Of a stretch of DNA of 64,000 nucleotides, positions 4,186 through 53,250 are shown in pieces; the stretch's first letter is position 1, and every line of letters starts with the position of its first letter. A model generated the notes under the pieces. That model saw only the letters and a list, made by a program, of their open reading frames with translations. It had not been told where the DNA came from and made no database searches. Both the position numbers and the translations under genes were made by a program. Origin of the DNA: Brachycybe producta (lineage: Eukaryota; Arthropoda; Diplopoda; Playtdesmida; Andrognathidae); contig JAUPFP010000033.1 of NCBI GenBank assembly GCA_036925085.1, positions 2,030,501-2,094,500 of the forward strand. Direction: 5' to 3'.

Positions 4186-4200
4186 ACTAGATGGCAGCAC
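4186..4200 (+). promoter_or_regulatory. CTCF-like site upstream of gene 1
   Basis: ACTAGATGGCAGCAC, the left-most copy of the array motif. It keeps AG-A-T-GGC-A-G-C but lacks the upstream CCA. It is 188 bp before the gene 1 ATG. Confidence 0.5.
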
Positions 4201-5035
4201 GGTATTTAGTTCTGATAGAAGTGGTATGCAATGTTTTGCATTGCATAAGACTCAAGTATACCGTTCTGACAGCCATTTTGAGTCTTGTTCCGTATTTCGA
4301 TAATATGGAAACCCAAAAGACTGAAATATGAGTTGCATTTTTTGTTTCCTTTTTTTCTACTGAGTGAAACATAACACTATTCAACTTCGATCACTAATCA
4401 AAATATTTAGATTAGAGTATCTAGTTTCAAAATCTATCATTAGTTTTTTTTCCGATTTGTAGTTTTAATGTTATAATTTTTTGAAAAATCAAATACATTT
4501 ATATGACAGATTTTTTTTCCGTCCTATAATTCAGAGTTAATATTGGTAAGTTGTCAAAAATAATTATTTTTTTGTAATTAAATTACTTCCTAAAGTATTT
4601 TTTACTACATTCCTTTTGAAACTCTAGTTTGAAAAATTGTGATTAATTTTTTGTTACTTTTCAACTTTTTTTCTGTTTTGTATTTTAAACTATTTTCGTT
4701 CGCAAACTACTCATAAGTTGTGTTAATTATTCCTAATTATTGTTGAGGGCCACTTTCTACCTTTATTTAAAAAAAAAACATAATTAAGAAAATAAAACAG
4801 GTACAAAACATTTATCTCCATATTCAAAAATGTTGCTTAAAATAAAGTTAAGCTTTAAACATTGATGCAAGACAAAACTCTATAGTAAGTCTATGGAAAG
4901 TATTTTAATTTTAGCTTTGTTGAAGAAGTAACATTTTAAAATACGACATTTTGCATGTGGTGATGTGACATTCTTAATCATGTGATTTGAATTTCAAAAA
5001 TAATTCGGATGCTTTGAAAAATGAGTAATTATAAT

Positions 5036-5560
5036 TATTTTTTTTTAAATTTAATAATTATTAGTTTTTTTTAATTTAATTATAATTTTTTTTAAAATTT
5101 AGTAATTATAATTTTTTTTAAATTTAGTAATTATAATTTTTTTAAATTTAGTAATTATAATTTTTTTTTAAATTTTGTAATTATAATTTTTTTTTTAAAT
5201 TTAGTAATTATAATTTTTTTAAATTTAGTAATTATAATTTTTTTTAATTTTTAGTAATTATAATTTTTTTTAAATTTAGTAATTATAATTTTTTTAAATT
5301 TAGTAATTATAATTTTTTTTTAATTTTTAGTAATTATAATTTTTTTTAAATTTAGTAATTATAATTTTTTTTTAAATTTAGTAATTATAATTTTTTTTAA
5401 ATTTAGTAATTATAATTTTTTTTAAATTTAGTAATTATAATTTTTTTTAAATTTAGTAATTGTAATTTTTTTTTAATTTAGTAATTATAATTATTTTTTA
5501 AATGTAATAATTATAATTATTTTTAAATTTAGTAATTATAATTAATTTCTTTAAATTTGT
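5036..5560. repeat. AT minisatellite, unit about 23-25 bp
   Basis: About 21 tandem units of the form TTTAGTAATTATAATTTTTT, differing mainly in T-tract length (6-9 T) and rare substitutions near the right end. There is no coding potential. Homogeneous inner units with diverged edge units suggest slippage or unequal exchange. Confidence 0.92.
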
Positions 5561-6143
5561 AATTAATTACTGTTGTGTATCTTTAAAACTTTAAACGTAA
5601 TTTATCTGAAAAAATGTCCAGAAGTCCAATTTAAAATTAGAAAGTTAAAAAACCAAGGAATTTATTTGTGACTACACTAACCACTTATTATTATTAAATT
5701 GGCTCCTTTTAATTATTTTACAAATATTTGAAGAAGTTCATCATGACCTTTATTTAACTTATGAGTCTTCTTTTTCTTTCGCATTTATTTAACAAAAAAG
5801 TTACAAAATATTTAACACCAATAATAACAGTAATAATACAAAAAAACATAGAGACACAGCTTCACATTCATTCACAAATTGGTATACATTCTTATTCGAA
5901 CATGGTTATTCTGTACATTTCAGAAGAGGAGCAACACTGAGGAGAAAGTGAAAGTCTTTAGAAACTAGAACGGTAACTGAATCATTTTAAGTAACCGACT
6001 GACCCTTCTAGTTTCTAAAACACTTAAGGCTTTTTTAAAGTGTAAACGTCTTTTGAACTGTGATGATTCTATCTTTCAGGTGCAGAAATGAAAGTGAAAA
6101 AGTGAACAAGATTTAGAAACTAGAAGGGAAATTCAATCACTTA

Positions 6144-6295
6144 AGGGTCTCTACACATAATCCGGTCATAACACGGTCCGGTTATGATCACCGGTCATTT
6201 TTCTATGCCAACTTTATTAAATACATTGGATTTCAATTGAAAATCTATATAGTTTCCGACCCCACCTTTGACCGTATAGTGTGAATCGACCCCCA
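6144..6295. mobile_element. PIF/Harbinger-like MITE, TTA target duplication
   Basis: The ends are imperfect inverted repeats (AGGGTCTCTACACATAATCC on the left; the complement of the right end reads TGGGGGTCGATTCACACTAT, and both lead into CGGTCA). TTA flanks the element at 6141-6143 and 6296-6298. Removing it rejoins a family-D sequence (CACTTA then GGGTATTTTCATG), so it inserted into D. It is 152 bp with no coding capacity. The superfamily is inferred from the TTA duplication. Confidence 0.7.
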
Positions 6296-6753: not shown

Positions 6754-8430
6754 CTAAGTCGATTTGCACGCGTCTTGTAACTGATTTGCAACGGTTGTTG
6801 CTGACTCTTCATCAAGTTCGATTCCATGTTTCTTTCGAACGTGAATCTTGAGCACAGACTTCTTCCTTAACCTGTGTCCACAAATGTGGCATACGAACTT
6901 GTACTCGACTTTACCCTCGTGACGTTGTATGTGTATCTTAAAGCTCAACGAGTCCGAATACTCGGCACTACAAATGTTACACTTGTATGGTTTCAGTCCC
7001 TTGTGACGGACTAAAACGTGACGTTTTAAATGTGCCATTTTCTGAAAACGGTACCCACATTCGTCACACATGTAATCTCTTATGTTCTGATGTTTTCCGC
7101 GTTCGTGTCGCCGTATGTCTTTAACGTAAGGAGCGGTATAGTTGCATTCTTTACATTTAAACTTTCCCATGCGTTCGTGTTTCGCTCTCTCGTGGACTCG
7201 TAGTTGGTGTTTCGCGTAACATACAAAGTCGCAATCGGGACACTTGACGTTCTTTTCGAGTGGATTTCCGTCAACGTCCATATGATGCAGTGACATTATG
7301 TGTTGCTTAAGAATCTGTTTTCGATGCGTTTTGAAATCGCAATATTTACAAACGGGAGGTTCAGTTCCACAGTTCGAATCGCGGTGTATCTCTAACAGAA
7401 GCCGACTTTCAAATCTCTTCTTACATATTCTGCATGGATACTGCTTTGGACCTTTTGCTTCTTTTTTAGCATGAGTTTCCAAATGCCTTTGAAGTCGATA
7501 CGGATAAATCGCAACGTATTTACAATGAGGGCAATTGAGGTTTTTCTTTTCTTTAACTTTATCATTTTTTGACGTAGCTGTTTCTTCGTTAGCTTTATCT
7601 TCGGAGTCTGTTTTTGTTTCGTTTTCAAGATTTTTCGTCACGTTTTGTTTTCGAAATGATTTATTGACTTTCTCTTTATTGCGATCGACTTCGCTCTTAA
7701 GCTTCCCTGGTCGCCAATTTTGATCGTGATTTTTTTTCTTTCTAGATTTTCTGCTTCTTTCATCGTCGGTGTCATCATCGGAACAGCCGTCGAAACTCTC
7801 GATGTCATCCAAACTCGATTCTTCATCGACAACCGAATGAATACTCATCTCGTCATCATCATCATCATCATCGTCGTCGTCATCAGAGGTAACTTTTTCC
7901 ATTTTTTCCTCGATAACGTTTTTGGACCTAGTTTGCTGTCGTAATCTGCTAAGTGGTGTTACATTATTTTGTTCAATCTTGTTTGTAAGTTTATTTTTGT
8001 CTTGATACTGACCGAGGCTGTCTTTTAAACTATTGATTCCCATGTTATCTGCGATGCGCACTAGGCAATCTGCATGTTCTTTAGGAATAACGGTCTTTCC
8101 GTTGTATGCATACTCGATGAGAAAGTCCATATCTTCCGCATGATCCGTAAGGTTGTCCAAATTGAGACACTGAGGTGTCGGTAACATGTTAGCAGTGTCG
8201 ACGTTCTTGTTGGTAGGCGATTGTTCGTGATCGAGAATCAAAGGGTCCGTCGACCAGATGGACTCTTTAAGTATGGGAAAGAGAAAAGCCATAACAAACT
8301 TATGAACTTTCTTCTGTTGTCCGTGACAGGTGACATTGAAGTCCACCAGATATTCCTCGTTGAAGAACTCTCGTAGTTTTGTAGACAACGCTTTGTCGTG
8401 ATCTTTCCATTCTAATAGTATTTCTCCCAT
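6754..8430 (-). CDS. BTB/C2H2 zinc-finger protein, array gene 2
   Basis: 558 residues, starting MGEILLEWKDHDKALSTKLRE. BTB 1-130. The linker holds a run of 11 Asp encoded by GAT/GAC repeats (7850-7890 region), then a Lys/Asp-rich stretch. Finger 1 is single (CPHCKYVAIYPYRLQRH), finger 2 is CCHC (HRDSNCG), and fingers 3-8 are standard except finger 3 (CKYCDFKTHRKQILKQH) and finger 6 (YRFQKMAHLKRH). The tail differs from the array consensus (VANQLQDACKST). The acceptor upstream of the ATG is weak and I found no donor. Unlike nearly all other members it has no CTCF-like site in the first 500 bp upstream. Confidence 0.93.
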   Translation of the reverse strand: MGEILLEWKDHDKALSTKLREFFNEEYLVDFNVTCHGQQKKVHKFVMAFLFPILKESIWSTDPLILDHEQSPTNKNVDTANMLPTPQCLNLDNLTDHAEDMDFLIEYAYNGKTVIPKEHADCLVRIADNMGINSLKDSLGQYQDKNKLTNKIEQNNVTPLSRLRQQTRSKNVIEEKMEKVTSDDDDDDDDDDDEMSIHSVVDEESSLDDIESFDGCSDDDTDDERSRKSRKKKNHDQNWRPGKLKSEVDRNKEKVNKSFRKQNVTKNLENETKTDSEDKANEETATSKNDKVKEKKNLNCPHCKYVAIYPYRLQRHLETHAKKEAKGPKQYPCRICKKRFESRLLLEIHRDSNCGTEPPVCKYCDFKTHRKQILKQHIMSLHHMDVDGNPLEKNVKCPDCDFVCYAKHQLRVHERAKHERMGKFKCKECNYTAPYVKDIRRHERGKHQNIRDYMCDECGYRFQKMAHLKRHVLVRHKGLKPYKCNICSAEYSDSLSFKIHIQRHEGKVEYKFVCHICGHRLRKKSVLKIHVRKKHGIELDEESATTVANQLQDACKST

Positions 8431-10284: not shown

Positions 10285-12150
10285 TCACGAGGTCAGTTTG
10301 CTCGCATCTTCCGATTGACACGGAACGAGATCATTGCTCGTAGGTAACTCCTCTTGCAGTTCCATTCCATGTTTCTTTCTCATATGATTCCGTAGCTCGG
10401 ATTTCCTTCTCAGATTGTGTCCGCAAATGTGGCACACAAACTTGTATTCCACTTTACCCTCGTGACGTTGCATGTGCACCTTGTAGCTCAACGAGTCCGA
10501 ATATTCAGCATTGCAAATGCTGCACTTATAAGGTTTTATTCCTTTGTGACGGACTAAAACGTGACGTTTCAAATGAGAGATGTTCTGAAATTGGAACCCG
10601 CATTCGTCACACATGTAATTTCGTATATTCTGATGCGTTACGCGTTCGTGTCGTACTAATTGAGTTATGTAGGGAGCTGCGAAGTTGCATTCCTTGCACT
10701 TGAATTTCCCCAAGCGTTCGTGCTTTGCTCTCTTATGCGTACTTAATTGGTGATCTGCATAACATACAAAGTCACAATCTGGACACTTGATGTTCCTTTC
10801 GAGTTGATTTCCATCTTCGTCCACTTGATGGATGGCCTTCATGTGTTGGAGAAGGGAAAATCTACGAACTGTCACGTGTGCACAGTATTTGCAAATGAAA
10901 GGTTCCGTTCCGCATTTTGTCTCACGGTGTGTTTCCAACAGACTTTTAGTTTCCAACTTTTTATTGCATAACTTGCAAGAAAACTGCTTAGGATCCTTTG
11001 TTTGTTTTCTAGTGTGACTTTCCAAGTGATATTGCAGTCGACTTGGATATTTCGCCTCGTAATCACACTGAGGACATTTGAGATTTTTCTTTCCTTCGTC
11101 TTTTGTCTCTAGTTTGCTTGACTGTTCTTCGCCGTCAGTTAACAATTCTCCATTGGAGTCTGTTTCCAACAGATTTGTGGTTTCAGATTTTATCTTGGAT
11201 AACTCGCAAGAAAACTGTTTCTGAGCCCTTGCCTGTTTTCTAGCGTGACTTTCCAAGTGGTATTGAAGTCGACTTGGATATTTTGCCTCGTAATCACACT
11301 GAGGACATTTGAGACTGTTCTTTCCGTCTTCTTTTGTCTGTGTTTCTTCATTTGGCTGTTTCTCACCATCAGTTATCAATTCTCCATTGGAGTCTGTTTT
11401 CGTAATTTTCTCCACAGTTTCTGCAGAGTTTGTTTTTCGAACTGAGTTGATAATTACTACCTCTTTTGTTCGATCGGCGTTATTTTGACGCTTCTGATTA
11501 GTTATTATCTTTCTTGATTTAATGGTTCTTTTGTTGCTGCTGCTGTCGGAACTTGATTCTTCGTCGAGAACCGAATGAAAATCCATATCATCATCATCAT
11601 CATCAAAATCATCATCACCGGAGTTAATCAAATCCACAGATTCTTCACTAACTTTAACTTTCTTTAGACTAGTGCGTGTTCTTGGTTTTTCATGTGTTGT
11701 ACTTTTCGGCTTCGGTTTATCACTGGGTCTCCTCTTGTTGTTTCTTTGATTGAGGCTGTCTTTAAGACATTGGATTTCCATGCTATCTGCAATACGCAAG
11801 AGACAATCGGCATGATCTTTAGGAACGGTGACCTTTCCAGTGTATGCAAACTGAATCAGATAGTCCACGTCCTCCGCATGGACCGCAATATTGTCCAAAT
11901 TGAGACACTGCGGTGTTGGTAGCATTGAGGAACCAACTGTCTCATCTTTCACTGGTTCTTCGGAGGTAGTGGACCTTAGAGATTCCTTGAGTATGGGAAA
12001 GAGAAATGCCATAACGAATTTGTGGACTTTCTTCTGTTGTCCATGACAAGTGACACTGAAGTCCACCAGATATTCCTCCTTGAAGAAATCCCATAGTTTG
12101 GTGGACAATGCTTTGTGATGACCCTCCCAGTCTAATAGTATTTCTCCCAT
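10285..12150 (-). CDS. BTB/C2H2 zinc-finger protein, array gene 3
   Basis: 621 residues from the ATG at 12150 (MGEILLDWEGHHKALSTKLW). A 67-nt 5' UTR intron (12157-12223, GTAAGT...TTTCAG) ends 6 bases before the ATG. BTB 1-130; the linker has an Asp run. A finger 1 + finger 2 unit is duplicated. Both finger 1 copies are intact (CPQCDYEAKYPSRLQYH). The first finger 2 has decayed: its second Cys is Ser, its His is Asp (CELS...LLETD) and the last Cys is missing. The second finger 2 is intact (HRETKCG), followed by fingers 3-8 and a consensus-like tail (CQSEDASKLTS). The BTB half is nearly identical to that of gene 5. Confidence 0.94.
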   Translation of the reverse strand: MGEILLDWEGHHKALSTKLWDFFKEEYLVDFSVTCHGQQKKVHKFVMAFLFPILKESLRSTTSEEPVKDETVGSSMLPTPQCLNLDNIAVHAEDVDYLIQFAYTGKVTVPKDHADCLLRIADSMEIQCLKDSLNQRNNKRRPSDKPKPKSTTHEKPRTRTSLKKVKVSEESVDLINSGDDDFDDDDDDMDFHSVLDEESSSDSSSNKRTIKSRKIITNQKRQNNADRTKEVVIINSVRKTNSAETVEKITKTDSNGELITDGEKQPNEETQTKEDGKNSLKCPQCDYEAKYPSRLQYHLESHARKQARAQKQFSCELSKIKSETTNLLETDSNGELLTDGEEQSSKLETKDEGKKNLKCPQCDYEAKYPSRLQYHLESHTRKQTKDPKQFSCKLCNKKLETKSLLETHRETKCGTEPFICKYCAHVTVRRFSLLQHMKAIHQVDEDGNQLERNIKCPDCDFVCYADHQLSTHKRAKHERLGKFKCKECNFAAPYITQLVRHERVTHQNIRNYMCDECGFQFQNISHLKRHVLVRHKGIKPYKCSICNAEYSDSLSYKVHMQRHEGKVEYKFVCHICGHNLRRKSELRNHMRKKHGMELQEELPTSNDLVPCQSEDASKLTS

Positions 12151-12310: not shown

Positions 12311-12327
12311 CCACAAGATGGCAGCAC
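12311..12327 (+). promoter_or_regulatory. CTCF-like site upstream of gene 3
   Basis: CCACAAGATGGCAGCAC, 161 bp before the ATG. Its first 15 bases fit the vertebrate CTCF core NCANNAGRNGGCRSY. It also resembles a YY1 site (AAGATGGCGGC). Confidence 0.6.
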
Positions 12328-12995: not shown

Positions 12996-14630
12996 TTACG
13001 AGGTCTGTTTGCTCGTATCTTCCGACTGGTTCAGATCACGAGCATCGAGTGTATTTAGATTTTCTTCCAGTTCCATTCCATGTTTCTTTCTCATATGATT
13101 CCGTAGCTCGGATTTCCTTCTCAAATTGTGTCCGCAAATGTGGCATACGAACTCGTACTCCACTTTACCCTCGTGGCGTTGCATGTGCACCCTGAAGCTC
13201 AACGTATCCGAATACTCTGCACTGCAAATGTTGCACTTGTATGGCTTCACTCCTTTGTGTTGAACTAAAACGTGACGTTTCAAGTGAGAGATGTTCTGAA
13301 ATCGGAACCCGCATTCGTCACACATGTAATTTCTTATGTTTTGATGCATTACGCGTTCGTGGCGTACTAATTGAGTTATGTAGGGAGCTGCGAAGTTGCA
13401 TTCCTTACACTTGAATTTGCCCAAGCGTTCATGTTTTGCTCTCTTATGAGTACTTAGTTGGTGATCTGCATAACATACAAAATCGCAATCTGGACACTTG
13501 ATGTTCTTTTCGAGTGGATTTCCATCTGGGTCCACTTGATGAATGGCCGACATGTGTTGGAGAAGAATAAATCTACGATTTGTCGTGTGCCCACAGTATT
13601 TGCAAACGAGAGGTTCCGTTCCGCATTTGGAATCGCGATGTGTTTCCAACAACGATCTGGTTTCAAATTTTTTCTTGCATAATTTGCAAGGAAACTGTTT
13701 CTGAGCCTTTGCCTGTTTTCTAGCGTGACTTTCCAAGTGGCGTCGAAGTCGATTTGGATATTTCGCCTCGTAATCACACTGAGGACATTTGAGATTTTTC
13801 TTTCCTTCATCTTTTGTTGGTGGCGTTATTTCTTCGTTTGGCTGTTCTTCATCATTTTCTTTTAATTCTCCATTGCATTCTATTTTCGTAAGTTTCTCCA
13901 CAGTTTCAACCAAGTTTGGTTTTAGAACTGATTTGATAATTACTACCCCTTTACTTCGACTGGGTTTAGTCCGACGCTTCTGATTATATGTATTAATTAG
14001 CTTCCTTGATCTAATCGTTCTTTTGTCACTACTGCTGTCGGAACTCGATTCTTCGTCGACAATAGAAGAAAAATCCAAATCATCATCATCATCATCATTA
14101 GAGCTAATCAAGTCCACAATTTCCTCACTAACTTTAATTTTCTCTACAGCAGTTCGTGTTCGTGGTTTCTTATGTGTTGAACTTTTCGGCATCGGTTTAT
14201 CACTGGGTCTTCTCTTGTTGTTTCTTTGATTGAGGCTGTCTTTTAGACATTGGATTTCCATGCTATCTGCAATATGCAAGAGACAATCGGCATGATCTTT
14301 AGGAACGGTGGCCTTTCCAGTATATGCAAACTGAATAAGATAGTCCATGTCCTCCGCATGGACTGCAATATTGTCCAAATTGAGACATTGCAGTGTTGGA
14401 AACATTGAGGAATCAACAGTCTCATTTTTCACCAGTTCCTCGAAGGTAGTGGACCTTAGAGATTCCTTGAGTATGGGAAAGAGAAATGCCATAACGAACT
14501 TGTGGACTTTCTTCTGTTGTCCATGGCAAGTGACACTGAAGTCCACCAGATATTCCTCCTTGAAGAAATCCCACAATTTTGTGGATAATGCTTTGTCGTG
14601 ACCCTCCCAGTCTAATAATATTTCTCCCAT
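12996..14630 (-). CDS. BTB/C2H2 zinc-finger protein, array gene 4
   Basis: 544 residues from the ATG at 14630; the frame is open for 31 codons upstream, but these lie in the 65-nt 5' UTR intron (14641-14705, GTAAGT...TCAG) and exon 1. BTB 1-130; linker with an Asp run. It shows the eight-finger plan plainly: CPQCDYEAKYPNRLRRH; CCHC finger (CKLCKKKFETRSLLETHRDSKCG); CKYCGHTTNRRFILLQH; CPDCDFVCYADHQLSTH; CKECNFAAPYITQLVRH; CDECGFRFQNISHLKRH; CNICSAEYSDTLSFRVH; CHICGHNLRRKSELRNH. The tail is NQSEDTSKQTS. A good reference member of the array. Confidence 0.95.
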   Translation of the reverse strand: MGEILLDWEGHDKALSTKLWDFFKEEYLVDFSVTCHGQQKKVHKFVMAFLFPILKESLRSTTFEELVKNETVDSSMFPTLQCLNLDNIAVHAEDMDYLIQFAYTGKATVPKDHADCLLHIADSMEIQCLKDSLNQRNNKRRPSDKPMPKSSTHKKPRTRTAVEKIKVSEEIVDLISSNDDDDDDLDFSSIVDEESSSDSSSDKRTIRSRKLINTYNQKRRTKPSRSKGVVIIKSVLKPNLVETVEKLTKIECNGELKENDEEQPNEEITPPTKDEGKKNLKCPQCDYEAKYPNRLRRHLESHARKQAKAQKQFPCKLCKKKFETRSLLETHRDSKCGTEPLVCKYCGHTTNRRFILLQHMSAIHQVDPDGNPLEKNIKCPDCDFVCYADHQLSTHKRAKHERLGKFKCKECNFAAPYITQLVRHERVMHQNIRNYMCDECGFRFQNISHLKRHVLVQHKGVKPYKCNICSAEYSDTLSFRVHMQRHEGKVEYEFVCHICGHNLRRKSELRNHMRKKHGMELEENLNTLDARDLNQSEDTSKQTS

Positions 14631-14779: not shown

Positions 14780-14796
14780 CCACAAGATGGCAGCAC
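14780..14796 (+). promoter_or_regulatory. CTCF-like site upstream of gene 4
   Basis: CCACAAGATGGCAGCAC, 150 bp before the ATG; identical to the gene 3 site. Confidence 0.6.
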
Positions 14797-17039: not shown

Positions 17040-17056
17040 CCACAAGATGGCAGCAC
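17040..17056 (+). promoter_or_regulatory. CTCF-like site upstream of gene 5
   Basis: CCACAAGATGGCAGCAC, 166 bp before the ATG. Confidence 0.6.
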
Positions 17057-19984: not shown

Positions 19985-20001
19985 CCACAAGATGGCAGCA
20001 C
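19985..20001 (+). promoter_or_regulatory. CTCF-like site upstream of gene 6
   Basis: CCACAAGATGGCAGCAC. It is unchanged although the intron between it and the ATG has been invaded by a MITE. Confidence 0.6.
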
Positions 20002-23204: not shown

Positions 23205-23221
23205 CCACAAGATGGCAGCAC
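23205..23221 (+). promoter_or_regulatory. CTCF-like site upstream of gene 7
   Basis: CCACAAGATGGCAGCAC, pushed to 405 bp from the ATG by repeat C. Confidence 0.55.
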
Positions 23222-28527: not shown

Positions 28528-28544
28528 CCACTAGAGGGCAGCAC
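28528..28544 (+). promoter_or_regulatory. CTCF-like site upstream of gene 9
   Basis: CCACTAGAGGGCAGCAC, 202 bp before the ATG. It matches the stricter vertebrate consensus CCASYAGRKGGCRS at every position; the T-to-G change makes it less YY1-like. Confidence 0.65.
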
Positions 28545-31862: not shown

Positions 31863-31879
31863 CCACAAGAGGGCAGCAC
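31863..31879 (+). promoter_or_regulatory. CTCF-like site upstream of gene 10
   Basis: CCACAAGAGGGCAGCAC, 165 bp before the ATG. Confidence 0.62.
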
Positions 31880-35043: not shown

Positions 35044-35060
35044 CCACAAGATGGCAGCAC
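35044..35060 (+). promoter_or_regulatory. CTCF-like site upstream of gene 11
   Basis: CCACAAGATGGCAGCAC, 186 bp before the ATG. Confidence 0.6.
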
Positions 35061-40462: not shown

Positions 40463-41188
40463 GTTGCTCTGAAATTTAGAATTACAATATTATGTACAAC
40501 AATTGATAAAGAAATTGAATGTTGTTAATACTAACAATCCTAAAAGATAAAAATGTGTCCTATTATTCTCACGTGTGATCCAAGGATTTTTACAAAATTG
40601 ACAATTCTAGTCAAATAAACCATGAAGTTGTGCCACAAGATGGCAGCACAGAATTTTATAATTTTGATAGATTGGTGGCATGTTTCCATTAGAAATCAAA
40701 AAAGCTACTGAAAATGATTTTTCATCAGTTCGATTTTTGTTATAGAAATTGAATTTTAATCAGGTGAAATTTTAAAGAATGTCAATATTTTAAGTGTAAA
40801 CGCCTCTTTCAGGAACAAAATTAAGAAAAACATTAATGTGTTTTAGAAACTAGAAGGGTCACTTCAGAATATTAGTAGATACATGATATTTTTTAATCTT
40901 TGCAAATAAAAAAATTATTTTGAAAGATATCAACATGAAAATACCCTTAATAAATAAATACCCTCTAGTTTCTAAAACATTTCGTAGTTTCTTTTTAATT
41001 TTGCACCTGAAAGACAGTATAAACAAAAGTTCGAAAATCAACAATGTATTAGAATAGATCGACTGTTACTATATTTTCTGTGACAATTTCTTATTTTATT
41101 TGACAAAAAAAAATTACAAAATATTTAATACTAATAAATAATGTAAAAATTTACGTAGAAGCTCGAATTTACAAATTGGTATTTCAAA
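40463..41188. other. Intergenic 13-14
   Basis: It holds the 5' UTR intron 40469-40535, CTCF-like site 40633-40649, a shortened family-E copy (40678 on), a family-D fold-back (about 40795-41040), and the 3' UTR of gene 14. Confidence 0.6.
40633..40649 (+). promoter_or_regulatory. CTCF-like site upstream of gene 13
   Basis: CCACAAGATGGCAGCAC, 171 bp before the ATG. Confidence 0.6.
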
Positions 41189-43195: not shown

Positions 43196-43765
43196 GTTCT
43201 CTCTCTCTCTGAAAAGAAAAAATTAAATACACATCTGTGCTGCAATGTTAATGACTGATTCATGCCACTTTCTGAATACATTTTGTAATATTCTCTTGGT
43301 TATTTATACTTGCTTGAATTTTATTTTCAGGTGAGATTCAAGACAGACGACAATATAATCATTACACAAAAAAAATCAAAAGATTTAAAGTACCAAAAAG
43401 CGTCAAAAGATGGCAGCACAAAACTTGTTTCCCCCTGAAAATGTTCAATTTGCAAGTTTTCATTTTAAGGTAGCCATTAGCCACCGAAACAAACAAAAAA
43501 ACAAAAGCCACCCAAACTAAAACCACCATAAAATAATGTTTATATTTTTAAAGATATAATCATGGAAATTATTTATGAAACATAGTTTATTTTTCTAGTT
43601 TCAAATAAACCTTGAAATTCTTCCAAGATTCTTTTTTAAAAATGTTTTGCGTGTTTTTTAATAAATTAAAAAAATAACTTCATTGGAGATTTTATTCAAA
43701 ATATTTACACAATAATTAACAAACTATTTTTTACACTCATTTATATATATTTTTTTTAAAAAAAA
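43196..43765. other. Intergenic 14-15, short spacer
   Basis: It holds the acceptor at 43209-43211, CTCF-like site 43403-43419 and the gene 15 3' UTR. No MITE is recognised. Confidence 0.6.
43403..43419 (+). promoter_or_regulatory. CTCF-like site upstream of gene 14
   Basis: TCAAAAGATGGCAGCAC, 208 bp before the ATG; still fits NCANNAGRNGGCRSY. Confidence 0.52.
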
Positions 43766-45784
43766 TTACGAGGTCGGTTTTCCTGTATCTTGCGATTCGT
43801 TAACGTTGTTTGTTGTTGTTAATTCCTCTTTTAGTTCGATGCCGTGTTTGCTTAGCATATGCCTCCTCAGTTCGAACCTTCTTCGTAAACTGTGTCCGCA
43901 GATGTGGCATACAAACTTGTATTCCACTTTACCCTCGTGACGTTGCATATGTATCTTGAAGCTCAACGAGTCCGAATACTCGGCATTGCAAATGTTGCAT
44001 TTGTGACGCTTCAATCCTTTATGCCAAGCTAAAACGTGACGATTCAATCTTGACCTAGACTTGTATTGGTTCCCACATTCCTCACACATGTAGTCTTTTA
44101 TGTTCTCATGCTTCGTCCGTTCGTGTATCCTTATTTCACTAATGTACGGAGCGGTGTAGTTGCATTCCTTACATTTGAACTTTCCCATTCGTTCGTGCTT
44201 TGCTCTCTGATGAGCTCGTAGCTGATGTCTTGCGTAACATACGAAGTCGCATTCCGAACACTTGACGTTCTTTTCTAATGGATTTCCGTTAGCATCTACT
44301 TGGTGCACGGCTATCATATGATGTCGAAGGATCATTTTACGACTCGTTTTGTGGCCACAATATTTGCAAACGAGAGGTTCGGTTCCACATTTCGATTCGC
44401 GGTGTACCTCTAACAAATGCCTGTTTTCAAATGATTTACTGCATGTTTTGCAAGTATTTGCAAGCTTTGGACCGTTTGCCAGTTTCCTAGCGTGGCTTTC
44501 TAAGTGACGTCTAAGATCGCGTGGAAATTTCGAAACGTATTCACAATGAGGACATTTGCACGTTTTCTTTTCTTTAACTTTATTTGTGGAAGTTGCCGTT
44601 GGTTCGTTCGATGGAGTTCTTTCGTTAGCTTCCACTTTGGAGTCTGTTTTTGTTAGAATTTCTGTCGCATTTTGGTTTTTAGCCTGTTTTCTAACATGGC
44701 TTCCCAAGTGTTTTCGAATTCGATTCGGATATTTAGCAGTGTAATCACACTGAGGACATTTGAGAAGTTTTTTTACATTATCATTTGACGGCACCGTTGT
44801 TTGTTCGTTTGACGGTTCCCCAACATTATGTTCTTTCGGCGAGCCTGTCGTCGTAAGCTTCTGCAGAGATTGTTTTATAACCAATTTAATAGGTTTCTTC
44901 TCTTTAGAGTGATCATCTTCCTTTCGACGCTTCTGTGGTACTCTTCGAGAGCCACTGGTTCCTTCGTCGTTGCTCTCGGAATATTCGACAATGTCCAGAC
45001 TTAAATCTTCGTTAAAGACAGAATGAAAATCAACATCATCATCATCGTCATACAAACTTTCCTTCATCATAACCCTTTTCAGAAGAGATCGTGGTCTTAG
45101 TCTTCCAAATGTTGTATTCGGAAGTTGAGCCTGATCGTGCATGCGCTCACTCTTCTTCGTATTTTCTCGATTAAGGCTATCGTTTAGGAATAAGTCGTTA
45201 TCTTCATTGTTATTACAATCGTCATTATTAGAGCTAACCAAGTCAACGCTTTCCATGATAATATTAACTCCGTTTAGCTGACTTTGTGGATTTTGTCTCT
45301 CGAGTGTCCGTTTACTTTGATCATTACACTTTTTCTTGTTGTTCACTCGTTCGAGGCTATCTTTTAGACACTGTATCTCCATGTTGTTAGAGATACGCAC
45401 GAGACAATCACGATGTTCTTTAGGAACGTTCGTTTTTCCAGTGTAAGCAAACTGGATGAGGTAAATCATGTCTTCCGCGTGGTTAGCAACATTGTCTAAG
45501 TTGAGACACTCAGGTGTTGGTAGCATTGAGGTTGTTTCAATTGTCTCATTCCTCTCAGTTTCTTCTTCTTCTTCTTGATGGAGAGCAGAAAGGCCAGTAC
45601 TAATTGACCTGAGAGACTCCTTGAGCATTGGAAAGAAAAGGGCGATAACGAACTTGTGGACTTTCATTTGTTGTCCGTGACAAGTGACACTGAAATCCAC
45701 TAGATATTCCTCCTTGAAGAACTCCCATAGTTTGGTGGACAAGGCTCTGTCGTGACCCTCCCAGTCTAATATTATTTCTCCCAT
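43766..45784 (-). CDS. BTB/C2H2 zinc-finger protein, array gene 15 (duplicated linker)
   Basis: 672 residues from the ATG at 45784 (MGEIILDWEGHDRALSTKLW). A T-rich acceptor (TTTTTTTTAG) is 11 bases upstream; with the likely donor GTATGG (45894) the intron is 99 nt. The linker is the longest of the array and looks duplicated: DSLERVNNKKK...LERQNPQSQLNGVNIIMESVDL and DSLNRENTKKS...GRLRPRSLLKRVMMKESL. Two finger 1 copies (CPQCDYTAKYPNRIRKH; CPHCEYVSKFPRDLRRH). Finger 2 is CCHC (CKTCSKSFENRHLLEVHRESKCG). Finger 6 is YKSRSRLNRH. The tail is NESQDTGKPTS. Its CTCF-like site lies 755 bp upstream, behind two insertions. Confidence 0.94.
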   Translation of the reverse strand: MGEIILDWEGHDRALSTKLWEFFKEEYLVDFSVTCHGQQMKVHKFVIALFFPMLKESLRSISTGLSALHQEEEEETERNETIETTSMLPTPECLNLDNVANHAEDMIYLIQFAYTGKTNVPKEHRDCLVRISNNMEIQCLKDSLERVNNKKKCNDQSKRTLERQNPQSQLNGVNIIMESVDLVSSNNDDCNNNEDNDLFLNDSLNRENTKKSERMHDQAQLPNTTFGRLRPRSLLKRVMMKESLYDDDDDVDFHSVFNEDLSLDIVEYSESNDEGTSGSRRVPQKRRKEDDHSKEKKPIKLVIKQSLQKLTTTGSPKEHNVGEPSNEQTTVPSNDNVKKLLKCPQCDYTAKYPNRIRKHLGSHVRKQAKNQNATEILTKTDSKVEANERTPSNEPTATSTNKVKEKKTCKCPHCEYVSKFPRDLRRHLESHARKLANGPKLANTCKTCSKSFENRHLLEVHRESKCGTEPLVCKYCGHKTSRKMILRHHMIAVHQVDANGNPLEKNVKCSECDFVCYARHQLRAHQRAKHERMGKFKCKECNYTAPYISEIRIHERTKHENIKDYMCEECGNQYKSRSRLNRHVLAWHKGLKRHKCNICNAEYSDSLSFKIHMQRHEGKVEYKFVCHICGHSLRRRFELRRHMLSKHGIELKEELTTTNNVNESQDTGKPTS

Positions 45785-46495: not shown

Positions 46496-46538
46496 TTGTT
46501 GTAATTTTGCAGTCGTAAATTGAAATGAATGTTTTTAT

Positions 46539-46554
46539 CAATAGAGGGCAGCAC
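46539..46554 (+). promoter_or_regulatory. CTCF-like site upstream of gene 15
   Basis: CAATAGAGGGCAGCAC, the variant shared by genes 15-17; fits NCANNAGRNGGCRSY. It is 755 bp from the ATG because MITE A and repeat C lie between. Confidence 0.58.
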
Positions 46555-48490: not shown

Positions 48491-48499
48491 AGTAATAAA

Positions 48500-50377
48500 T
48501 TACGAGGTCTGTTTTCCAGTTTCTTGCGATTGGCATGAAACGAGATCGTTGGTTGCAGGTAACTCCTCTTGCAGTTCCAGTCCATGTTTTTTTCTCATAT
48601 GAGTCCGAAGCTCGTACTTTCTTCTCAAATTGTGTCCGCAGACGTGGCATACGAACTTGTATTCCACCTTACCCTCGTGACGTTGCATGTGTATCTTGAA
48701 GCTTAACGAGTCTGAATACTCGGCATTGCAAATGTTGCACTTGTGAGGTTTTATTCCTTTGTGTCGGATTAAAACGTGGCGATTTAGCCTTCCTCTAGAC
48801 TTGTATCGATAACCACATTCCTCACACATGTAGTCACTTATGTTCTGATGTTTCGTTCGTTCGTGCCGTAGTACGTCTTTGACGTAGGGAGCGGTGTAGT
48901 TGCATTCTTTGCATTTAAACTTTCCCATCCGTTCGTGTTTAGCCCTCTCGTGAGCTCGTAGCTGGTGTCTCGCATAACATACAAAGTCACATTCCGGACA
49001 TTTGATATTCTTTTCAAGTGGGTTTCCGTTCGCATCCACTTGGTGCATGGCTATCATATGTTGTATGAGGATCACTTTACGACTAGTTTTGTGTCCACAA
49101 TATTTGCACACGAGAGGTTCCGTTCCACATTTGGAATCACGGTGTGCCTCTAACAACTGCCTGTTTTCGAATGATTTGTTACACGTCTTGCAAGTGTTTG
49201 CAAGCCTTGGACCCTTTGCCAGTTTCCTAACGTGACTTCCTAAGTGTCGTAAGAGTCGATTCGGATACTGTGCAACGTAATCGCATTGAGGACATTTGAG
49301 ATTTTTGTTTCCATCATCTTTTGTCATAGTTGTTGATTGTTCGTTGGATATTTCTTCATCATTGGCTACTTTATCCTCCTGCTTCTCCTTCTCCTCCGGA
49401 AAAAGGCAAAGGAACTGCTTTCGATCCCTTGCCTGTTGCCTAACGTGGCTTCCCAAGTGGCGTAAAAGTCGATTAGGAAATTTCGCAATGTAATCACATT
49501 GAGGGCATTTCAAGAGTTTCTTTCCCGTATTATTTGCCAACGTGTTTGATGGTGCTGCACGGTTAATATCTTTCTTCGAGTCTGTTTCCGATACTTTCTC
49601 GAAAATTTCTGATGAGTTTCGTCTTTGTACCGATTTGATAGTTGCTTTCTCTTTGGAGCGATTATCTTCCCTTCGACGTTTCCGAGGAACTCTCTTCTGA
49701 CTAGTAATTATCTTTTTGGAGTTGCCAGTTATTTTGTCGTTACTGTCGGAACACTCGATAATGTCCATATTAGATTTTTTATCGAAAACAGCATGAAAAT
49801 CTAAATCATTACCATCATCACCACCACCACCATCATCATCTTCGGAGCTGGCGAAGTCATCGATAACCGTCACCTTTTTTAGATTAGTTCGTGGTCTTAG
49901 CCTTCCGAGTGTCGTTTTCAATGATTCATTCTTGTCGTTATTCGTACTCCTCTCAATGTTCCCTCGATGAAGGCTGTCTTTTAAACATTGTATCTCCATA
50001 TTGTCTGCAATATGCTTAAGACAATCGGTATGTTCTTTAGGAACAGTGGTTTTCCCAGTGTATGCAAACTGAATGAGGTAGTCCATATCCTCAACATGGT
50101 CAGCAACGTTATCTAAATTGAGACACTGTGGTGTCCATACCATTCTAGGTGTTTCATTCTTCACAGGTTCTCCTTGATCAAGAATCAAAAGGTCAGTGGA
50201 CCAGAGGGACTCCTTGAGCATAGGAAAGAGAAGGGCCATAACAAACTTGTGAACTTTCTTTTCTTGTCCATGACAAGTGACACTGAAGTCCACCAGATAT
50301 TCCTCTTTGAAGAAATCCCATAGTTTGGTGGACAATGCTTTGTCGTGACCCTCCCAGTCTAATAGTATTTCTCCCAT
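48500..50377 (-). CDS. BTB/C2H2 zinc-finger protein, array gene 16
   Basis: 625 residues from the ATG at 50377; the frame is open 55 codons further but crosses an acceptor (TTATTATAG, 2 bases before the ATG). BTB of the 15-17 type. Linker with mixed Asp/Gly (DDDGGGGDDGNDLD). Two finger 1 copies (CPQCDYIAKFPNRLLRH; CPQCDYVAQYPNRLLRH) separated by an acidic spacer (FPEEKEKQEDK). Finger 2 is CCHC (CKTCNKSFENRQLLEAHRDSKCG). Finger 6 is YKSRGRLNRH. The tail is CQSQETGKQTS. A MITE adjoins the stop. CTCF-like site 200 bp upstream. Confidence 0.94.
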   Translation of the reverse strand: MGEILLDWEGHDKALSTKLWDFFKEEYLVDFSVTCHGQEKKVHKFVMALLFPMLKESLWSTDLLILDQGEPVKNETPRMVWTPQCLNLDNVADHVEDMDYLIQFAYTGKTTVPKEHTDCLKHIADNMEIQCLKDSLHRGNIERSTNNDKNESLKTTLGRLRPRTNLKKVTVIDDFASSEDDDGGGGDDGNDLDFHAVFDKKSNMDIIECSDSNDKITGNSKKIITSQKRVPRKRRREDNRSKEKATIKSVQRRNSSEIFEKVSETDSKKDINRAAPSNTLANNTGKKLLKCPQCDYIAKFPNRLLRHLGSHVRQQARDRKQFLCLFPEEKEKQEDKVANDEEISNEQSTTMTKDDGNKNLKCPQCDYVAQYPNRLLRHLGSHVRKLAKGPRLANTCKTCNKSFENRQLLEAHRDSKCGTEPLVCKYCGHKTSRKVILIQHMIAMHQVDANGNPLEKNIKCPECDFVCYARHQLRAHERAKHERMGKFKCKECNYTAPYVKDVLRHERTKHQNISDYMCEECGYRYKSRGRLNRHVLIRHKGIKPHKCNICNAEYSDSLSFKIHMQRHEGKVEYKFVCHVCGHNLRRKYELRTHMRKKHGLELQEELPATNDLVSCQSQETGKQTS

Positions 50378-50576
50378 TCCTATAATAAAAAGAATAAAAT
50401 TGATGCTTAGCATGCAATAATTAAAAATATTATGTCCATAGAAATGAAAAATAACCGAAAGATACGGTTTTACTTTCCAATTTGAATGTCCCCAGGTAAA
50501 GTTAAGTAAATTAGTAAATTGCAAATTTGCAGTCAAAAACAAAAATCAGTGAAATGAAATTAATGAATGTTTCTAA

Positions 50577-50592
50577 CAATAGAGGGCAGCAC
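50577..50592 (+). promoter_or_regulatory. CTCF-like site upstream of gene 16
   Basis: CAATAGAGGGCAGCAC, 200 bp before the ATG. Confidence 0.58.
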
Positions 50593-50688: not shown

Positions 50689-50878
50689 AGGCCTTGTGTT
50701 TCCATTGTGGTGAAAATTTGAACTTTTTGAAAATTTCAACTTATGAAAAATGGAAGAAACGGTGGCTCTCCGCCCATTCCCTATCATAGGCAAAGGTCAC
50801 GTTTCTTCTGTTTTTCACCAGTTTGTGAAATTTTCAAAAAGTTCAAAATTTTCGCCCCAATGGAAACAAAAATGCCTA
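50689..50878. mobile_element. MITE family B, copy 2
   Basis: AGGCCTTGTGTTTCCATTGT on the left; complement of right AGGCATTTTTGTTTCCATTG; the inside matches copy 1 (6372-6551), including ATGGAAGA and ATAGGCAAAGG. Confidence 0.75.
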
Positions 50879-51267
50879 AGAATGCAAGTAGATCATTTAA
50901 TTTGTGCGTATAGCGTTAGATGGCGCCACTAGCCCTCCTCCCTTAGGAATGGTACTGACACTTCTTCAACTCTGACTCACCTTTCAGGGCCCTCTCACTT
51001 TGGTTGTCATTTACTTTGCTTGAAAAGGTCCCAGTTCCTTTTTAGATTGTCTTAAATTAATAATAATAATAATAATAATTTATTAATAATAAAAATAATT
51101 CAAGAACATAATTTTTTTTCTCTCCATTTATTTAATTAACAAAAAATTATAAAAAATATTGATATTTAAGAATAATACGTAAAAAATGTAGAAACTTTTT
51201 ACATTTTTCCTATGTAATAATTTACTAGGCCGGGTTTTCCGCATCTTGTACGAGCTCGTAATTGGCA

Positions 51268-53085
51268 TTAAACAATATCATTGGTTGCAGCTAGTTCCTC
51301 TTCCATGTCCATACCGTGTTTCTTTCTCAAATGAGTACGAAGCTCGTATTTTCTTCTCAAATTGTGTCCGCACACATGGCATACGAACTTGTACTCCACT
51401 TTACCCTCGTGACCTTGCATGTGTATATTGTAGCTTAAAGTATTTGAATATTCCGCATTGCAAATATTGCACTTGTGAGGCTTCACCCCCTTATGTTGAA
51501 TTAAAACATGACGACTTAATTTTCCACTAGACTTGTATCGATGCCCACATTCCTCGCACATGTAGTCACTTATGTTCTGATGTCTTCCCCGTTCGTGTCG
51601 CCGTAGATCTTTAATGTAGGGAGCGGTATAGTCGCATTCCTGACATTTAAACTTTCCCACCCGTTCGTGTTTTGCTCTCGCGTGGGCTCGTAACTGGTGT
51701 CTTGCATAACAAAAGAAGTCGCAATCCAGGCACTTTACGTTCTTTTCAAGTGGATTTCCGTTGGCATCCACTTGATGCATGACTATCATATGTTGTACGA
51801 GGACCTTTTTACGAGTAGTTTGGTGGCCACAATATTTGCACACGAGAGGTTCCGTTCCACACTTAGACTCGCGATGTGCTTCGAACAACTGTCTCGTTTC
51901 AAATGAACTGTTGCATGTCTTACAAGTATTTGCAGGCTTTGAACTCGTTGCTTGTTTTCTAACGTGAGTTCCCAAGTGTCGTACGAGTTTATTCGGATAT
52001 TGTGCAACGTAATCGCATTGAGGACATTTGAGACGTTTGTTTTCATCGTCTTTTGTCACTGTTACTGACTGTTCGTTTGATGGCGCTTCATCATCCTTTA
52101 CTACTGTTTCCTCCTGTTTCTCCTTATCTTCTGGATTAAGGCGAAGGAACTTCTTCCGATCTTTTGCCTGTTGCCTAACATGGCTTCCCAAGTGGCGTAA
52201 AAGTCGATTAGGATATTGCGCAATGTAATCACATTGAGGGCATTTCAGAACTTTCTTTCCCGTAGTATTTGTCGACGTTGCCGTTATTTTGTTTGGTGGT
52301 ACTTCGCAGTTAGCTTCATCCTTCGAGTCTGTTAGAGTTTGTTCCACAGTTTTTGATACGTTTCGTCTTCGTACCGATTTGATTTTTGGTTTCTCGTCTT
52401 CCCTTTGACGCTTCCGAGGAATTCTCTTTCGAATAATAATTATCTTCTTTCTGGAGCTGCCGGTTCTTTCGTTGCTGCTGCTCTCGACGATGTCGAGATT
52501 AGATTTTTCATCAAGCGTAGAATGAAAATCTAAATCATCATCATCATCAACATCATCGGAACTAACCAAGTCTTCCTTCTCCTTCTTTAGATGAATTCTT
52601 GGTTTTAGTTTTGAGAGTGTCATTTTCAACGGTTCAGTCTTGTCGTTATTCGTACTCCTCTTGTTTTCCCTTCGATTGAAACTGTCTTTTAGACATTGTA
52701 TCTCCATATTATTTGCGATATGCTTAAGACAATCGGTATGTTCTTTAGGAACGGTGGTCTTTCCAGTGTATGCAAACTGAATCAGATATTCAATGTCTTC
52801 TGCGTGGTTAGCGACGTTGTCCAAAGAGAGACACTGAGGCTCGGGTATTTTCGAGGATTGTCCGTTAGTTGCTGGCTCTTGTTCATCTAGAGAGAAGGTA
52901 CCGCCTGATCTGAGGGACTCCTTGAGTATGGGAAAGAGAAGGGCCATTACAAACTTATGAACTTTCTTCTGTTGTCCATGACAAGTGACACTGAAGTCCA
53001 CCAGATATTCCTCTTTGAAGAACTCCCATAGTTTGGTGGACAATACTTTGTCGTGACCCTTCCAGTCCAGAAGAATTTCTCCCAT
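51268..53085 (-). CDS. BTB/C2H2 zinc-finger protein, array gene 17 (short tail)
   Basis: 605 residues from the ATG at 53085; acceptor TTATTTATAG 11 bases upstream, donor not found. The BTB mixes features of genes 8-11 (LRSGGTFSLDEQEPA, AEDIEYLI) and 15-16. Two finger 1 copies (CPQCDYIAQYPNRLLRH; CPQCDYVAQYPNKLVRH), CCHC finger 2 (HRESKCG), fingers 3-8 with finger 6 YKSSGKLSRH. It stops at TNDIV; against gene 16 a nonsense change at the Ser codon before CQSQ removes the last 11 residues, whose sequence can still be traced downstream. Last and right-most gene of the main array. CTCF-like site 150 bp upstream. Confidence 0.94.
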   Translation of the reverse strand: MGEILLDWKGHDKVLSTKLWEFFKEEYLVDFSVTCHGQQKKVHKFVMALLFPILKESLRSGGTFSLDEQEPATNGQSSKIPEPQCLSLDNVANHAEDIEYLIQFAYTGKTTVPKEHTDCLKHIANNMEIQCLKDSFNRRENKRSTNNDKTEPLKMTLSKLKPRIHLKKEKEDLVSSDDVDDDDDLDFHSTLDEKSNLDIVESSSNERTGSSRKKIIIIRKRIPRKRQREDEKPKIKSVRRRNVSKTVEQTLTDSKDEANCEVPPNKITATSTNTTGKKVLKCPQCDYIAQYPNRLLRHLGSHVRQQAKDRKKFLRLNPEDKEKQEETVVKDDEAPSNEQSVTVTKDDENKRLKCPQCDYVAQYPNKLVRHLGTHVRKQATSSKPANTCKTCNSSFETRQLFEAHRESKCGTEPLVCKYCGHQTTRKKVLVQHMIVMHQVDANGNPLEKNVKCLDCDFFCYARHQLRAHARAKHERVGKFKCQECDYTAPYIKDLRRHERGRHQNISDYMCEECGHRYKSSGKLSRHVLIQHKGVKPHKCNICNAEYSNTLSYNIHMQGHEGKVEYKFVCHVCGHNLRRKYELRTHLRKKHGMDMEEELAATNDIV

Positions 53086-53234
53086 GATAATGGTTCCTAT
53101 AAATAAAAGTATATCTTTAGAATTACGTTTTGATCAACAACTTGAATGCCTCTTTGGCAAAGTTTAGTAAATTACCAAATTGCAATTTCGCACTCGTAAC
53201 AGAAAATCAATGAAATTGAAATAATGTTTGTAAA

Positions 53235-53250
53235 CAATAGAGGGCAGCAC
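53235..53250 (+). promoter_or_regulatory. CTCF-like site upstream of gene 17
   Basis: CAATAGAGGGCAGCAC, 150 bp before the ATG. Confidence 0.58.

Follow-up and report, generated by a model that had tools for sequence, protein, structure and literature searches.

Same-facing CTCF-like sites at the promoters of a millipede tandem array of BTB zinc-finger genes

Introduction

CTCF sites that precede gene after gene and all face the same way are familiar from the vertebrate protocadherin and antibody loci. Here we ask whether a CTCF-like motif repeated in this manner along a tandem array of a millipede is indeed a CTCF site, and what it may do there. The same layout in a myriapod family of transcription-factor type, combined with a CTCF that retains its motif for binding cohesin, makes it possible to ask whether the wiring of promoters by CTCF and cohesin is older than the vertebrates or has evolved repeatedly. 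In a survey of arthropod and outgroup species, CTCF was recorded in 105 and CP190 in 81, crustaceans included (PMC5094011), and given this spread CTCF function outside insects is now directly testable.

Results

The first-pass annotation's assignment of the DNA to an arthropod is correct, COX1 being closest to that of millipedes. The array spans 201 kb of contig C33 (1,888,107 to approximately 2,089,500); its tandem BTB zinc-finger genes, about 65 in number, lack introns and are all paralogs. The window, by which we mean the whole stretch of 64,000 bp analysed (from 2,030,501 of C33), covers its right part, and the observation is thus larger than the first-pass annotation had described. The array genes lie on the - strand and the motif on the + strand (Table 1). 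Their products combine a BTB domain with C2H2 fingers and are of nuclear type; a Pfam scan covered 17 of the 18 window genes, the remaining one (48500..50377) being assigned from its ORF and N-terminus. The FxLRWN motif, which defines Tramtrack-type BTB domains (PMC11426971), is absent from the array N-termini, which by eye read MGEILLDWEGH or close variants.

The first-pass annotation had placed a site of constant orientation before 16 of the 18 genes. All 16 sites are real, lie on the + strand and are upstream of 16 of the 18 minus-strand ORFs, the genes without a site beginning at 1155 and 8430. Most sites do fit one pattern, since NCANNAGRNGGCRSY is found exactly in 14 of them (exceptions 4184 and 37837), and the window holds 15 exact matches against 0.13 expected, the 15th on the - strand at 59909. 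The 17-mer at up to three mismatches recovered 13 of the 16 listed sites (shuffles expect 0.07). A distance to the ATG of about 150-230 bp was likewise borne out for 13 of the 16 (149-227 bp), the other three lying at 405, 409 and 754 bp.

Table 1. Genes and CTCF-like sites of the window (window coordinates)
Feature	Position	Strand	Remarks
BTB-ZF gene, cut by window edge	1..1155	-	native site absent; repeat-borne CCAATAGATGGTGCAAC 139 bp upstream
BTB-ZF gene	2397..3998	-	
CTCF-like site	4184..4200	+	AAACTAGATGGCAGCAC; 186 bp from ATG 3998
BTB-ZF gene without site	6754..8430	-	C33 ATG 2038930
BTB-ZF gene	10285..12150	-	
CTCF-like site	12311..12327	+	161 bp from ATG 12150
BTB-ZF gene	12996..14630	-	
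CTCF-like site	14780..14796	+	150 bp from ATG 14630
BTB-ZF gene	15258..16874	-	
CTCF-like site	17040..17056	+	166 bp from ATG 16874
BTB-ZF gene	17978..19576	-	
CTCF-like site	19985..20001	+	409 bp from ATG 19576
BTB-ZF gene	21085..22800	-	
CTCF-like site	23205..23221	+	405 bp from ATG 22800
BTB-ZF gene	24100..25695	-	
CTCF-like site	25922..25938	+	227 bp from ATG 25695
BTB-ZF gene	26572..28326	-	
CTCF-like site	28528..28544	+	CCACTAGAGGGCAGCAC; 202 bp from ATG 28326; first 14 letters are the human consensus exactly, by inspection
BTB-ZF gene	29845..31698	-	
CTCF-like site	31863..31879	+	G at position 9; 165 bp from ATG 31698
BTB-ZF gene	32957..34858	-	
CTCF-like site	35044..35060	+	186 bp from ATG 34858; TTATAAAA adjoins upstream in gene sense
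BTB-ZF gene	35975..37642	-	
CTCF-like site	37837..37853	+	CCTCAAGATGGCAGCAC; 195 bp from ATG 37642
BTB-ZF gene	38711..40462	-	
CTCF-like site	40633..40649	+	171 bp from ATG 40462
BTB-ZF gene, two BTB domains	41189..43195	-	
CTCF-like site	43403..43419	+	TCAAAAGATGGCAGCAC; 208 bp from ATG 43195
BTB-ZF gene	43766..45784	-	
CTCF-like site	46538..46554	+	TCAATAGAGGGCAGCAC; 754 bp from ATG 45784
BTB-ZF gene (ORF and N-terminus)	48500..50377	-	
CTCF-like site	50576..50592	+	ACAATAGAGGGCAGCAC; 199 bp from ATG 50377
BTB-ZF gene	51268..53085	-	
CTCF-like site	53234..53250	+	ACAATAGAGGGCAGCAC; 149 bp from ATG 53085
First reverse-facing CTCF-like match right of array	59909..59922	-	CAATAGACGGCGCT; dispersed-repeat flank

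Across the array, 58 of 64 genes have a match with up to two mismatches within 1 kb of the ATG when the strand opposite the gene is scanned, as compared to 1 of the 64 when the gene's own strand is, and 54 of the 64 genes keep a match once four repeat-borne matches are removed. With a matrix derived from C1 and C2 contig sites, 53 of 64 genes reach 10 bits or more in the orientation opposite the gene, repeat-borne sites included, and 2 of 64 do so in the other; at 10 bits, the parts of the 264-kb stretch outside promoters contain 10 matches on the + strand and 14 on the - strand. The median distance from site to ATG was 198 bp (130-300 bp in 38 of 54), the layout being one of tandem units each with a same-facing CTCF-like element at a similar distance. 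A native site is absent in 10 of the 64 genes and also in the two leftmost array genes. Constant orientation therefore stands throughout the window but not at the far left edge, where the match of the outermost array gene (1890201) faces the other way. That the site is better kept than its surroundings was confirmed: mean pairwise identity was 0.83 for the site, 0.32 (near background) for the 40+40 bp of ungapped flank and 0.56 for four-fold sites of the genes (1378 pairs from 53 array genes, four repeat-borne sites still included).

The published consensus for CTCF is CCASYAGRKGGCRS in human (PMC6746451) and CNNNAGNNGGCGC in Drosophila (PMC8336396). At up to one mismatch, the human consensus matched the 264 kb 28 times on the + strand (25 in promoters) and twice on the - strand, while six resampled sequences gave 0-1 matches per strand. 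Among the 54 array sites, whose forms include CCACAAGATGGCAGCAC and an AGAGGGC variant, 24 differ from it by 0-1 mismatch, 44 by 0-2 and 10 by 3-4; the Drosophila consensus is matched exactly by only two. Base counts in these sites (position 8, A52/G2; position 9, T43/G11; position 13, A50/G3/T1; position 14, G47/C7) reveal a tolerance limited to R at position 8, K at position 9 and R-S at positions 13-14. On the gene tree (49 native sites), at least seven changes fall at position 9, all between T and G, two at position 8, both between A and G, and three at position 14, all between G and C. Outside C33, the CCACNAGNNGGCAGCAC class occurred 37 times (control 0), with C16/T13/A8/G0 at position 5. 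A dispersed repeat inflates the genome totals of the GCGCC class and makes up much of the excess of the motif across the genome, and the shorter pattern CCANNAGRKGGCRSC has a large reversed-pattern control as well (782 against 464).

The genome encodes a CTCF ortholog in three exons (C16:1697722-1699045; 61/71/44% identity), two of which have CTCF 7w1m as their best PDB match. All 12 base-contact residues of its ZF4-6 are those of human CTCF, but only 2 of 4 contact positions agree in ZF3 and 1 of 4 in ZF7; SIYDF at its N-terminus aligns with SVYDF of human CTCF, so that the cohesin-binding YDF motif is retained.

Two other readers of the site were weighed. An unrelated promoter factor of the zinc-finger type, specific to the lineage, or the array BTB-ZF proteins acting on their own promoters, would suit an array that codes for many zinc-finger proteins, and two features of the site are atypical for CTCF: position 5 is systematically off-consensus (A in 43 of 54 sites; consensus C/T), and the CAC tail is conserved yet outside the human consensus. 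However, the published CTCF consensus allows the same R, K and S choices, and a constant site requires a constant reader, which counts against the array proteins, given that their finger contacts vary. Among 57 array proteins, finger variability is highest at helix positions 2, 3 and 6 (non-contact position 5 being nearly as variable and position -1 intermediate), dN/dS is 0.48 at finger contacts vs 0.31 at other finger positions (22 pairs), and near-constant contacts are kept by one finger only, at three of four positions. We therefore regard such a factor as unlikely.

The first-pass annotation had also named YY1, and a YY1/Pho site would make the motif an ordinary promoter activator or a Polycomb-linked element. 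The modal array site, with A at position 5 and ATGGC, includes CAAGATGGCAGC, which is close to the YY1 word, and the promoter of the boundary paralogs has a separate AAGATGGCGGC word. On the other hand, C2, A3 and the CAC tail are kept although they lie outside the YY1 word. The four-base core of YY1, CCAT/ATGG (PMC2791781), is intact in 41 of the 54 sites and lost from the other 13 through at least seven T/G and two A/G changes, the rest of the site remaining undecayed; mismatches at eight conserved positions stand at 0.23 in sites without ATGG vs 0.29 in the others, and in a three-gene clade sharing the G the site is 94-100% identical and the flanks 28-42%. The YY1 alternative thus fails at its core and appears quite improbable. 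In contrast, the CTCF reading gains from the substitution pattern, the failure of YY1 and the presence in this genome of an ortholog whose core fingers are conserved, and predicted CTCF binding at the array promoters is well supported by sequence.

Discussion

The sequence comparisons make it probable that the promoter of each array unit carries a predicted CTCF site, which was passed on together with the unit and is held in one orientation by purifying selection. CTCF would bind at or beside the core promoter, could keep every promoter accessible and apart from neighbouring ones, and may halt cohesin coming from upstream, such that promoters could reach regulatory sequences lying right of the array. 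Promoter insulation and tethering is the most likely outcome; exclusive or stochastic single-gene choice is possible but less probable.

The earlier proposal of protocadherin logic, in which CTCF would direct which one or few genes a cell expresses, survives in part. Tandem single-exon genes, a single same-facing site for each at a similar distance from the ATG and a CTCF with a cohesin-binding motif agree with it; the orientation of the sites and the nature of the products do not. Protocadherin promoter sites are forward, and their partners are reverse sites in an enhancer downstream (PMC7811963), whereas in the array the motif and the genes occupy opposite strands, which is the reverse of the relation to transcription that we infer for protocadherins, and any loop would point upstream. 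Right of the array there are reverse matches (C33: 2090409, 2096378, 2104421, 2108016, 2109775, 2144376), some of which are repeat-borne or in an inverted duplication; forward matches (2098038, 2099131, 2103643) lie among them. No shared enhancer was identified for the array. Moreover, the vertebrate clusters, with their promoter CSE/CTCF sites, encode adhesion receptors, whereas the array encodes BTB plus C2H2 finger proteins, among which neither cell-surface adhesion products nor constant exons were seen. Protocadherin-like choice is accordingly very unlikely.

We give similarly little credence to a mirror image of the protocadherins, an independently evolved myriapod CTCF/cohesin promoter-selection cluster for DNA-binding proteins. 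Here most of the approximately 65 promoters would halt cohesin from an upstream regulatory region, one or few zinc-finger specificities would be expressed per cell or allele, and promoters without a native site would be re-equipped by a same-orientation repeat-borne CTCF-type word. Finally, passive carry-over from a founder unit of a site functionless today, which would suit paralogs of one tandem array, is disfavoured and extremely improbable, as the site outlasts both its flanks and the four-fold synonymous sites.

The probable arrangement of CTCF sites at the array promoters can be compared with other known systems. Vertebrate KRAB-ZNF and insect ZAD-ZNF clusters are tandem zinc-finger families with strongly variable base-contact residues; the array shares this variability but differs in its BTB effector domain, and a same-facing CTCF site at each promoter is not known for those clusters. 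The mammalian IgH VH locus resembles the array in that its many V genes have CTCF sites all in one orientation, with a locus-specific sub-consensus and conservation above the surroundings (PMC6746451); unlike the array, it is a recombining antigen-receptor locus, its sites are intergenic, upstream or RSS-associated, and the sub-consensus is a different one. Chelicerate shortened Dscam likewise consists of tandem units in an arthropod, each 5' cassette being preceded by its own promoter, and its authors liken it to protocadherins, but the cassettes belong to cell-surface proteins (PMC5775551); CTCF occurs once in the main text of that paper, within a reference title. The honeybee small heat-shock cluster is an arthropod gene cluster with predicted CTCF sites, but these flank the cluster, and the available sections of that paper describe none before each promoter (PMC8336396).

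As to core promoter elements of the array, TAAAA occurs at a fixed place in only 12 of 58 promoters, and a subset of promoters has a TATA-like box that precedes the site, read in gene sense, by approximately 10 bp.

Array extent and promoter sites

The 18 minus-strand single-ORF genes of the window are the right-hand portion of a larger tandem array of BTB zinc-finger (BTB-ZF) genes, which, with the flanks fetched, runs from 1,888,107 to about 2,089,500 of contig JAUPFP010000033.1 (C33), i.e., 201 kb and about 65 genes on one strand, a few broken ones included. Within this contig the window covers bases 2,030,501-2,094,500. Both the BTB domain and C2H2 fingers were detected by Pfam in 17 of the 17 window genes scanned. 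No more BTB-ZF ORFs were found in the 28 kb read to the left of 1,888,107, and three related genes, one on the minus and two on the plus strand, lie to the right of the array. Word-based searches of 5.8 billion proteins returned no close relatives; the best-scoring hit of the protein search covered 53% of its query at 25% identity, and a query with the BTB part gave no relative at E 0.001 among 70 candidates. Since dN/dS is 0.29 over the 22 closest gene pairs, the array genes look functional. One window gene carries two BTB domains in tandem, and a zinc-finger-only and a BTB-only ORF at the array's right end look like two halves of one broken gene, with comparable splits elsewhere in the array (Table).

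The first-pass annotation had listed 16 CTCF-like sites of constant orientation in front of 16 of the 18 window genes. All 16 were found, on the plus strand only, against a chance expectation in the window of 0.07 (17-mer, up to three mismatches) or 0.13 (degenerate pattern), and the pattern proved larger in scope, with native sites before 54 of 64 genes examined in the array and at its boundary. The 64 comprise 63 genes of the array whose start could be identified, its leftmost two being excluded, and one boundary paralog, and all were searched for the best match to CCANNAGRKGGCRSCAC within 1 kb upstream of the ATG, counting mismatches out of 15 informative letters. A match with at most two mismatches was present on the strand opposite the gene in 58/64 and on the other strand in 1/64, namely gene 1973295 (genes are named by the C33 coordinate of their ATG), which also has a plus-strand site. 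Without four sites borne by a dispersed repeat, 54 of the 64 keep a native site, 53 of them among the 63 array genes and one at the boundary paralog. Native sites lie a median of 198 bp from the ATG, with 38 of 54 at 130-300 bp; the site assigned to gene 1902639 (720 bp) is doubtful.

Constant orientation holds inside the window and breaks down at the left edge, where the outermost array gene has a reverse-facing match; its neighbor has no nearby match among those listed at up to four mismatches. The orientation follows the gene, as the site flips in inverted gene copies to the right of the array, which represent one duplication and count as a single case. All three boundary paralogs carry a CCACTAGATGGCGGT-like word roughly 250 bp upstream, its orientation turning with that of the gene, and AAGATGGCGGC, a YY1-like word, stands separately and farther upstream in the two boundary-paralog promoters read.

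Coordinates of features in and around the array and on other contigs of the assembly
Feature	Contig	Position	Strand	Remark
Outermost left array gene	C33	1888107-1889864	-	
Match of outermost left gene	C33	1890201	-	reverse-facing
Second left array gene	C33	1891992-1894016	-	
Split genes	C33	1904292/1906030; 2001757/2002309/2003414		
Repeat copy within array	C33	2016090	-	
Gene with two BTB domains	C33	window 41189-43195	-	
Zinc-finger-only and BTB-only ORFs	C33	window 55548-56738 and 58059-58994		same strand
Repeat copies at right edge	C33	2090115, 2090407	-	
Boundary paralogs	C33	2093189-2095357, 2104682-2106850, 2110021-2112165		one runs opposite to the others
Boundary site	C33	2095602	+	gene on -
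Boundary sites	C33	2104419 and 2109775	-	genes on +
Five CCACTAGATGGCAGC	C1	2711313-2712206		short tandem run, 157-380 bp apart
Nine CCACAAGATGGCGGC	C1	1925191-1926723		short tandem run, several spaced 23 bp
C2H2 zinc-finger ORF cluster	C68	96130-127646	-	several ORFs
COX1-like copy	C1	12697416-12698753		
COX1-like copy	C17	4027703-4029047		

Identity of the predicted factor

The sites are best read as predicted CTCF sites close to the promoters of a zinc-finger gene array in a myriapod; the literature searched yielded no report of a CTCF site ahead of every gene in an arthropod cluster. A CTCF ortholog is encoded on contig C16 in three exons, which are 61, 71, and 44% identical to the fingers of human CTCF, and VDVDMSIYDF near its N-terminus, with the cohesin-binding YDF motif, corresponds in the alignment to human KDVDVSVYDF. 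With finger 4, which is split over two exons, joined for the comparison, fingers 4, 5, and 6, which read the AG-RK-GGC core, share 12 of 12 contact residues (-1, 2, 3, and 6) with the human protein; finger 3 retains two of four human contacts and finger 7 one of four. The search for the CTCF protein also encountered a further zinc-finger cluster on contig C68 (Table).

Across the 54 native sites (the four repeat-borne ones removed), positions 2, 3, 6, 7, 10, 11, 12, 15, and 16, numbered along the motif, are nearly invariant; elsewhere the sites have A, G, or C at position 4, A52/G2 at 8, T43/G11 at 9, A50/G3/T1 at 13, and G47/C7 at 14. Given the human consensus CCASYAGRKGGCRS (excerpt of PMC6746451), every letter tolerated at positions 8, 9, and 14 is one that CTCF accepts, as is each at 13 with a single exception. 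Position 5 speaks against CTCF, since 43/54 sites carry A there and the consensus C/T. A quick tree of the proteins of 57 array genes, on which 49 native sites could be placed (five of the 54 belong to genes off the tree), gives at least seven changes at position 9, none of them to A or C, two at position 8 (A/G), and three at position 14 (G/C). The class CCACNAGNNGGCAGCAC, taken as non-repeat from its letters with flanks read at two outside places (L001 and L002), has 37 of its 48 places outside C33 (control 0); by hand tally, position 5 is C in 16 of these 37, T in 13, A in 8, and G in none, and R and K occur together at positions 8 and 9 in 24.

YY1, which had been named as an alternative reader of the sites, requires ATGG according to PMC2791781, and ATGG is absent from 13/54 native sites. 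These are no more degraded than the others (0.23 vs. 0.29 mismatches at the eight other conserved positions), and in the clade 2076284/2080877/2083585, which has a common G variant, the sites are 94-100% identical while the flanks are 28-42%. Passive carry-over of a site without function is unlikely, since mean identity over 1378 gene pairs, the four later-dropped repeat-borne sites included, is 83% for the site, but 32% for ungapped 40 + 40 bp flanks and 56% for four-fold sites (proteins 57%), and information content is already low a few bases away on both sides. Regulation of the promoters by the array's own proteins was set aside, as their contact positions are variable, with dN/dS of 0.48 at contacts vs. 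0.31 at other finger positions (BTB part, 0.21). Among finger positions, variability is highest at helix positions 2, 3, and 6 (mean 2.49, 2.16, and 2.51 bits), with 2.13 bits at the non-contact position 5 and 1.76 at -1. The array probably comprises many DNA-binding specificities that share one promoter design, as do other expanding zinc-finger families.

Promoter layout and possible mechanism

In 12/58 promoters, read in gene sense, the first base of a TAAAA lies exactly 9 bases ahead of the site, against two promoters at most for any other position, and TATAAA lies at -11 or -10 in seven, counts that take related genes separately. If these words serve as TATA boxes, the start site would lie near the far end of the CTCF-like word; a TATA-like box beside the CTCF-like site is suggested for a subset of promoters only.

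CTCF motif polarity sets the side on which cohesin is held. Most likely CTCF binds each promoter, and by their facing the motifs would turn this side toward upstream, i.e., toward higher coordinates and away from the gene body, and cohesin coming from the right would be stopped at the promoter site, which may bring the promoter near right-side DNA and set it apart from the next unit. Reverse matches to the right of the array are candidate convergent partners, but they are intermixed with forward ones and partly repeat-borne. The parallel drawn earlier with protocadherin choice does not extend to a claim of membership of that kind, since both the orientation and the product type disagree. CTCF sites are commonest in promoter regions in four Drosophila species (excerpt of PMC3491045), which makes support or insulation of promoters the modest interpretation; stochastic gene choice is the bold one.

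Dispersed repeat

Genome-wide motif totals in the 295-Mb assembly were withdrawn as independent support for CTCF, as a large share of the GCGCC class belongs to a dispersed repeat, the overlap being approximate. CCANNAGRKGGCRSCAC has 409 occurrences (control 0), which make up 409 of 492 for RK (control 2) and 409 of 486 for RS (control 0) when positions are freed; the shorter CCANNAGRKGGCRSC has 782 vs. 464 in the control, and the array word with at most one mismatch 57 vs. 3. The scoring matrix, built from sites of the CCANNAGRKGGCRSC scan, does not depend on the array but does depend on the repeat. The same scan returned two short tandem runs on contig C1 (Table).

The repeat (consensus CCAATAGATGGCGCCACCTCTACTTAGAGCTAA, at least about 50 bp) includes a CTCF-type word, and its 33-base part occurs at 248 genome places with up to three mismatches (123 plus, 125 minus; control 0). 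Mammals have CTCF-bearing SINEs, to which this repeat is comparable. The repeat flank was found on four of the 58 sites first counted (genes 1938714, 2008457, 2025457, and 2031655), and these were dropped from position tallies, distances, and tree counts and kept in the 58/64 strand count, matrix scan, identities, information content, an ATGG count, and the TAAAA counts. The C33 stretch examined holds 13 plus and three minus copies, and 12 of the plus copies stand 139-542 bp in front of an array ATG. A plus copy 60-520 bp upstream accompanies 5/10 genes without a native site vs. 5/54 with one (Fisher p 0.006, a post hoc value on non-independent copies; one gene, 1938714, has a weaker match of native type as well, at 205 bp), and the sequences hint that repeat-borne sites may substitute for lost native ones. 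A second locus (1 kb), on contig C1, shows a BTB-ZF start that is preceded by repeat-type matches alone and is therefore not independent support. The COX1 of the small contig C442 comes nearest to that of the millipedes Antrokoreana and Abacion (85% identity; class Diplopoda), and COX1-like copies beyond this contig, on C1 and C17, are probably nuclear copies of mitochondrial DNA.
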